A stretch of DNA of 64,000 bases, taken from positions 1 to 64,000 of the forward strand of contig JAFGJV010000039.1 of the NCBI GenBank assembly GCA_016928955.1, written 5' to 3'. This document shows positions 62,092 to 63,781 of the stretch, piece by piece. Position numbers and translations under genes: made by a program. The stretch comes from Spirochaetales bacterium (GTDB lineage Bacteria; Spirochaetota; Spirochaetia; Treponematales; UBA12059). The notes beneath the pieces are model-generated. The model searched no databases, had not been told where the DNA came from, and saw nothing but the letters and a program-made list of their open reading frames with translations. How positions within the stretch are numbered: position 1 is the first letter of the stretch; each line of letters starts with the position of its first letter.

Positions 62092-62108
62092 ACCGAGTGA
62101 GGATAACC

Positions 62109-63233
62109 GTGGCCGATCCAATTTCCGTCCTCGTTGTGGACGACTCAGCCCTCATGCGCAACCTAGTGTCGCGCATAGTCGAGTCCACGCCGGGACTCAC
62201 CGTAGCCGACCGCGCCATGAACGGAGTGTTTGCCCTCCAGAAGATCCCGCGCTGCAATCCGGACGTCATAGTCCTGGACATAGAGATGCCCCAGATGAAC
62301 GGCATCGAGTTCCTCAAGGAACGCAAGAAGCTTGGCATAGACATCCCGGTGGTCATCCTGTCCAGCGTGGCCAAGCGCGGCGCGCAGATCACCATGGAAG
62401 CCCTGGCCCTTGGCGCGGCGGACTTCATTACCAAGCCTTCCGGGTCAGTGTCGTCGGACATACACACGGTGGCGGGCGACCTGGCCCGGCTCCTGGTTGC
62501 CTACGGGTCGCAGTACCGCAAGGTCAAGGGCAAGGAGCCGCCGCACTACAACTTTGAGGCGCCCGAACAGCTGTTCGATGTTCCCCTGCCGGACGCCCGC
62601 CCCCGGCCGGCCGCGCCCACAAGGGAAAAGCCCGTCCGACGCCGCGACGCCGGCCCCACCGAGCTCATAGCCATAGGCATTTCAACCGGCGGGCCAAACG
62701 CCCTCCGGGACGTGTTTTCCAACATCGATCCGGGACTTGCCCAGCCCGTGGTGGTTGTCCAGCACATGCCGGCAGGCTTCACGGAAGAATTCGCGTCAAG
62801 CCTGGACCGCATCTGCCCCCTGGACGTCAAGGAAGCGGCGGAGGGAGACATACTCAGGCCCGGGCGCGTTCTCATAGCGCCGGGCGACTGGCACATAACC
62901 GTGGAAAAACGCGCCTTGGCCGGCGTGGTGCATCTTTCCCAGGATCCCACGGAAAACGGTCACCGGCCCAGCGCCGACGTCCTGTTCCGCAGTGTGGCCA
63001 GCGAGTACGGCAACCGCTCCATGGCGGTCATCATGACAGGCATGGGCAAGGACGGCGCCCGGGAAATGGGAACCATATTCAGGGAAGGCGGCATCACATT
63101 GGGACAGGACGAGGCCAGCAGCGTGGTGTACGGCATGCCCAAGGTAGCCTTCGAGCTTGGCCACGTGATGGAGCAGGTGCCCCTGTCCCTGATGGCCAGA
63201 CGCATCAGTGAGCTGGCGGCAGAGCGGCGCTAG
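62109..63233 (+). CDS. cheB: Chemotaxis protein-glutamate methylesterase
   Basis: A 374-residue CheB: receiver domain with VVDDSALMR, phosphoacceptor Asp in VIVLDIEMPQM and Lys in FITKPSG; a linker; then the esterase domain with Ser in AIGISTGGPNAL, His in VQHMPAGFTEEF and Asp in MTGMGKDGA. The GTG at 62109 has GAGG 7 nt upstream and is preferred over GTG 62097, whose own codons include that RBS. Works against CheR in adaptation. Confidence 0.95.
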   Translation: MADPISVLVVDDSALMRNLVSRIVESTPGLTVADRAMNGVFALQKIPRCNPDVIVLDIEMPQMNGIEFLKERKKLGIDIPVVILSSVAKRGAQITMEALALGAADFITKPSGSVSSDIHTVAGDLARLLVAYGSQYRKVKGKEPPHYNFEAPEQLFDVPLPDARPRPAAPTREKPVRRRDAGPTELIAIGISTGGPNALRDVFSNIDPGLAQPVVVVQHMPAGFTEEFASSLDRICPLDVKEAAEGDILRPGRVLIAPGDWHITVEKRALAGVVHLSQDPTENGHRPSADVLFRSVASEYGNRSMAVIMTGMGKDGAREMGTIFREGGITLGQDEASSVVYGMPKVAFELGHVMEQVPLSLMARRISELAAERR

Positions 63234-63248
63234 GACGACGCCTTAAGC

Positions 63249-63278
63249 TTGCCTACCGGTCACGATAATCATTATCTT
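63249..63278 (+). promoter_or_regulatory. Promoter of the 43-codon gene
   Basis: TTGCCT (63249-63254), 18-bp spacer, TATCTT (63273-63278). The -10 overlaps the Fur-like box, so repression by steric block is plausible. Confidence 0.4.
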
Positions 63279-63289
63279 ATTAATCATAA
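63264..63289. promoter_or_regulatory. Fur-like box with adjoining second dyad
   Basis: GATAAT-C-ATTATC (63264-63276) is the 6-1-6 core of the classical Fur box. It is directly followed by an imperfect dyad, TTATTAATCATAA (63277-63289), related to Fur/PerR half sites. No other such site was seen in the window. Confidence 0.55.
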
Positions 63290-63374
63290 ATGACGCTGGC
63301 TCGCCGTTTTTTTTCGTAAGCCGGCGCTGGGGTCGGAGCAAGCCCGATCTTGAGCCGAGCCCGAGGAGGAACGT

Positions 63375-63506
63375 ATGCATATTGTCGTGGATGACGAACG
63401 TGAACAGGATGAGTACAAAACCCTGCCGCCCTGCGACAAGCCCCACGTATCGGAAACCCACCGGACGGAGGACAAGGACGACGCCTGCGACGACGGGATA
63501 GGTTGA
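63375..63506 (+). CDS. 43-residue acidic Cys/His protein under a Fur-like box
   Basis: A short gene with a very strong RBS (GAGGAGG, 4 nt before the ATG). The product is highly acidic (about 14 Asp/Glu against 5 Lys/Arg) and carries Cys20, Cys38 and His2, His24, His29, possible metal ligands. No membrane segment. The GC-poor promoter region 90 bp upstream contains a Fur-type palindrome. The family is not recognised; the RBS and operator context are the main support for it being real. Confidence 0.55.
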   Translation: MHIVVDDEREQDEYKTLPPCDKPHVSETHRTEDKDDACDDGIG

Positions 63507-63521
63507 GCAGAGGGGCGACCG

Positions 63522-63539
63522 GGCCGGAACACGCCGGCC
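63522..63539. terminator. GC-rich hairpin between convergent genes
   Basis: GGCCGG-AACACG-CCGGCC lies between the stop codons of the 43-codon gene and the NifU-type gene. It lacks a U-run on either strand, so it is at best a weak or factor-dependent bidirectional terminator. Confidence 0.35.
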
Positions 63540-63553
63540 GCCCGTGCGGACGC

Positions 63554-63781
63554 TCAGCCCTGAACCACTTCCTTGACGCCCGGCACGACCTTTTTGAGGT
63601 AGGCCTCAACGCCCTGCTTGAGGGTCATGATGGCCATGGGGCAGGAACCGCAGGCGCCTGTCAGGCGCACGGTTACCGTACCCGTGTCGGCCACCGACAC
63701 CAGCTCTATATCGCCCCCATCCGCCTGGAGGGAAGGGCGCACGTCCTGTATGGCCCTGCGAACGCTTTCCTGGTCTACCAT
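63554..63781 (-). CDS. NifU-type Fe-S scaffold (C-terminal domain only)
   Basis: A 75-residue stand-alone NifU C-terminal domain: [15 protein letters not shown] and the cluster-binding CGSCPMA motif, as in NfuA's Nfu domain or plastid/bacterial Nfu proteins. It holds and passes on 4Fe-4S clusters; the hydrogenase, HydB, purF and the Cys-cluster proteins in the window are possible clients. GAGGAG lies before the ATG. Confidence 0.93.

Follow-up and report, generated by a model that had tools for sequence, protein, structure and literature searches.

Between cheB and a convergent nfu-like gene, the 64,000-nucleotide stretch of spirochaete DNA analysed here (the window) holds a 43-codon open reading frame with a palindrome over its promoter. 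Is this microgene a real gene, to what does its product belong, and which metal regulator, if any, controls it? A sequence-only reading had proposed a Fur-like box upstream of a peptide of no known family. The coordinates of the features are given in Table 1. The GAGGAGG ribosome-binding site and the 43 codons with two Cys and three His described in that reading are present.

Table 1. Features of the microgene locus in the window (strand given as. where none applies)
Feature	Position	Strand	Remarks
cheB	62097..63233	+	Upstream neighbour, conserved
Promoter TTGCCT-18-TATCTT	63249..63278	+	TTGCCT 63249-63254, 18-nt spacer, TATCTT 63273-63278; read directly
Core of the very probable Fur box, GATAATCATTATC	63264..63276	.	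13 bases; overlaps the -10 of TTGCCT-18-TATCTT
5' leader (approximate)	63286..63362	+	Contains an 8-bp hairpin around U8
Ribosome-binding site GAGGAGG	63363..63369	+	Sequence read
Microgene, 43 aa, short family member	63375..63506	+	ATG 63375, stop 63504-63506
Conserved tail LPPCDKPHVSETHRTEDKDDACDDGIG	63423..63503	+	
GC-rich inverted repeat	63515..63545	.	In the gap between the microgene and convergent nfu; judged by eye
nfu-like gene	63554..63781	-	Convergent neighbour, separate operon

A translated search with the microgene found relatives in many genomes (best E-value 1.6e-10, others weaker). In 11 close family pairs, where it was measurable, dN/dS ranged from 0.02 to 0.22; in pairs with the window gene the synonymous sites are saturated, and the ratio speaks for the family and not for this copy. 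This conservation indicates that the 43-aa microgene is a real small-protein gene and not an orphan. A strong ribosome site is found in nearly all family members. The window protein has no Pfam or NCBIfam match and its tail is uncatalogued, in agreement with the earlier statement that no known family came to mind.

We read 49 members of the family. Profiles of the tail and of the full-length protein found members across the phylum Spirochaetota (other phyla were searched with close-relative patterns only). The tail follows the pattern C-x6-E-x2-R-x7-C-[DNHK]-[DEN], which the window protein fits. Among the 48 listed tails, which come from searches favouring the motif, C4, E11 and C22 are invariant (48/48) and R14 is found in 47/48. 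The 49th member, G068, has lost both tail cysteines, a single case of co-loss. Since both cysteines are kept elsewhere and lost together in G068, the residues point to a cysteine pair. In the full-length members, which are 60-67 aa long, a ribbon containing CxxC and CC precedes the tail. In the short members, including the window protein, a charged, low-complexity start replaces the ribbon. The microgene product is a short member of this undescribed Spirochaetota protein family. The cheB-nfu locus of G005 and others carries the full-length form and therefore the window gene is a ribbon-less ortholog. In f1, f4 and f39, short forms coexist with full ones inside the same family, pointing to repeated loss of the ribbon. 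An uncatalogued small-protein family with a defined cysteine tail is added, spread over many families of one phylum.

The gene is not bound to one position. In some relatives cheB adjoins nfu with no microgene between them. Elsewhere the neighbours are thpR-like, diacylglycerol-kinase-like and other genes (named by eye), and nothing iron-related was found next to family members outside the nfu locus. An operon or functional link with nfu was rejected because the two genes are convergent, the microgene sits elsewhere in other genomes and its neighbours change. A FeoC identity was also rejected, as the microgene does not adjoin feoAB and its product has no Pfam match. Four loci (L082, L086, L088 and L089) and f4 relatives have short members in the gap between the thpR-like and diacylglycerol-kinase-like genes, which is a second stable position of the gene. 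A search for relatives on plasmids gave three weak matches, none of them convincing.

The desulforedoxin-like domain of the family, with the window gene as its short form, was unforeseen in the earlier reading. The Pfam desulfoferrodoxin N-domain (PF06397) matched 12 of 22 full-length members at E <= 0.1 (best 1.2e-6), and the ribbon also matched NCBIfam TIGR00319 (best E 2.1e-5). The full-length profile also finds the true desulfoferrodoxin in the genome of the window and, against PDB, desulforedoxin at E 0.007. PDB zinc-finger matches were discarded: they add up short, repeated CxxC matches, and none is the match of a domain. The CxxC...CC ribbon is common to the full-length members and to desulforedoxin and the desulfoferrodoxin N-domain (PF06397, TIGR00319), whereas the conserved tail lies outside those models and the window protein has no ribbon at all; the CxxC...CC cysteines of the desulforedoxin-like (PF06397) site are absent from it. 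AlphaFold models of the full form show a short beta ribbon at moderate confidence and an unstructured tail. The model of the window protein is of low confidence. A PDB fold search, with a model of low confidence, gave no significant E-value; desulforedoxin had the highest listed probability (0.77) and was second by E-value (1.3). The literature library searched here gave no paper on desulforedoxin in spirochaetes. A 44-codon open frame at L192 1016-1147 (G253:C50) looks like a desulforedoxin standing alone, with no tail.

The promoter of the microgene was absent from a sigma-70 scan because its hexamers fall below the scan threshold. Similar TTGxxx-17/18-TATATT or TATCTT elements were seen by eye upstream in several relatives. 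The core GATAATCATTATC covers the -10 hexamer, where a repressor site is expected. The earlier reading had described this core plus an adjoining dyad; the core is exact, but the second dyad is AT-rich and weak. Two exact copies of GATAATCATTATC are found in the 2.87-Mb genome, the one at 63264-63276 and another at C54:21462-21474; Markov models built on the window predict 0.0014-0.007 exact sites per genome. The reversed control pattern has no match in the genome. With up to two mismatches, the window gives two matches (0.18 expected), both being the same site on its two strands. The second exact copy lies directly before feoA-feoB, downstream of a Fur gene. None of the other checked genome sites with <=2 mismatches is in a promoter-like gap; they lie within, or a few bases from, a larger open frame.

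The search for exact copies was extended to 58 relatives. In the family of the window's species (f1) and in the nearest one (f4), 17 other genomes together carry 18 exact copies. Of these copies, seventeen are beside fur, feoA or feoB and one is beside a likely iron ABC transporter gene, whose product reads like an iron-binding protein of such a transporter (name from sequence only). Most exact copies in family f5 are inside open frames, as chance predicts, and one is in the gap separating an Rrf2-like regulator gene from another gene. In G054 (L123, around 1500) the same 13-mer is part of a longer perfect palindrome, CTGGATAATCATTATCCAG, flanked on one side by an Rrf2-like regulator gene and on the other by a cysteine-rich gene resembling carbon monoxide dehydrogenase; this palindrome is probably the site of a different regulator. 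The 15-base box of the relatives is mostly TGATAATCATTATCA. Compared with this 7-1-7 box, the window core matches at 13 of 15 positions and both outer bases differ. It was concluded that GATAATCATTATC over the microgene promoter is very probably a Fur box, as first proposed, and Fur control of the microgene in this species is well supported by the placement of the operator copies. The comparison also defines the Fur box for this group of uncultured spirochaetes. Since the operator is common to the microgene and feoAB, we predict repression by Fur and induction at low iron. A second Fur-family gene (L118 3253-3642, minus strand; G000:C19) overlaps a znuB-like permease gene and is therefore probably Zur. 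Zur was rejected as the regulator of the microgene: the Zur-like gene is present, but the box matches that of feoAB.

The sequence-only reading had suggested looking for the microgene and the box together in relatives. Many of them have the peptide, and its gene often lies between cheB and nfu, but a conserved box does not accompany it: none of 36 upstream regions of other family members has a convincing Fur box. G016 reached 13/19 matches (p 0.003) and G234 12/15 (p 0.007), before correction for 37 regions, and their sequences are unlike the core. Iron control is therefore not the general rule of the family, and would be confined to this lineage or to few. The missing boxes, the two mismatched outer bases and the kinship of the ribbon to desulfoferrodoxin would also fit a coincidental box over a constitutive promoter, the role of the family then being in redox chemistry, connected with desulforedoxin or superoxide reductase and unrelated to iron. 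We consider this improbable, given that about 0.005 exact sites are expected genome-wide and that the other copy sits at feoAB.

What the probably Fur-controlled protein does may be approached from known systems. In Bacillus subtilis, the small proteins FbpA, FbpB and FbpC serve the iron-sparing response under Fur control. They are not known to have a cysteine tail, and the likeness is one of description, not sequence. MntS of E. coli (42 aa, MntR-repressed) is a metal-repressed small protein of similar size which does not need to bind metal for its action on manganese (PMC4361602); its metal and regulator differ from those proposed here, and it is likened by description, not sequence. MtrI of Methanosarcina is a small protein in which an N-terminal zinc ribbon is joined to a segment docking on an enzyme complex (PMC12774963), a plan like that of the spirochaete family by description, in an archaeal protein with another partner. 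In the literature considered, we regard MntS and MtrI as the nearest precedents.

In the reading we prefer, Fur with iron would repress the microgene, and iron scarcity would induce it together with feoAB through the shared operator. The small protein would most likely be made when iron runs short. The tail would be its working part, its two cysteines acting as a pair that binds ferrous iron or another metal, or docks on a partner protein, and in this species the protein probably assists in allocating iron or in sparing it under starvation. We judge the chances about even that the product is a Fur-repressed, ribbon-less form of the family, binding a metal or a partner through its cysteine/acidic tail. 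The metal-sensor function suggested at first is possible. More tentatively, and with some doubt, the tail may be a new portable iron- or thiol-dependent Spirochaetota motif, repeatedly freed from a desulforedoxin-like domain and placed here under Fur as an iron-starvation effector. Another explanation, on balance unlikely, is that the tail docks on an enzyme or transporter and binds no metal, Fur control being a local addition as with MntS. The tail is predicted to be unstructured yet is conserved, the short forms have only two Cys, ribbon-less members in several families imply that the tail is able to act alone, and MntS (PMC4361602) and MtrI (PMC12774963) offer precedents; the conservation and joint loss of both cysteines, however, point to metal or disulfide chemistry. 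Iron, acting through Fur, would offer a concrete regulatory handle on one member of the family by which function can be tested.

The Fur box and the roughly 75-nt leader with its hairpin could also belong to a transcript that acts chiefly as a RyhB-like small RNA under Fur repression, the peptide being secondary. This is very improbable: the leader structure is no better than shuffles, the sole Rfam match is far under the gathering score and outside the leader, and the family shows selection at the protein level. A structured leader or riboswitch was rejected on the same folding result (z -0.77 against shuffles) and the sub-threshold Rfam match. That match is to the L31 leader (window 63543-63600, 20.7 bits, cut-off 33.2); it overlaps the end of nfu and is most likely due to chance. 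The GC-rich inverted repeat that separates the microgene from nfu is possibly a two-way terminator without a U tract.
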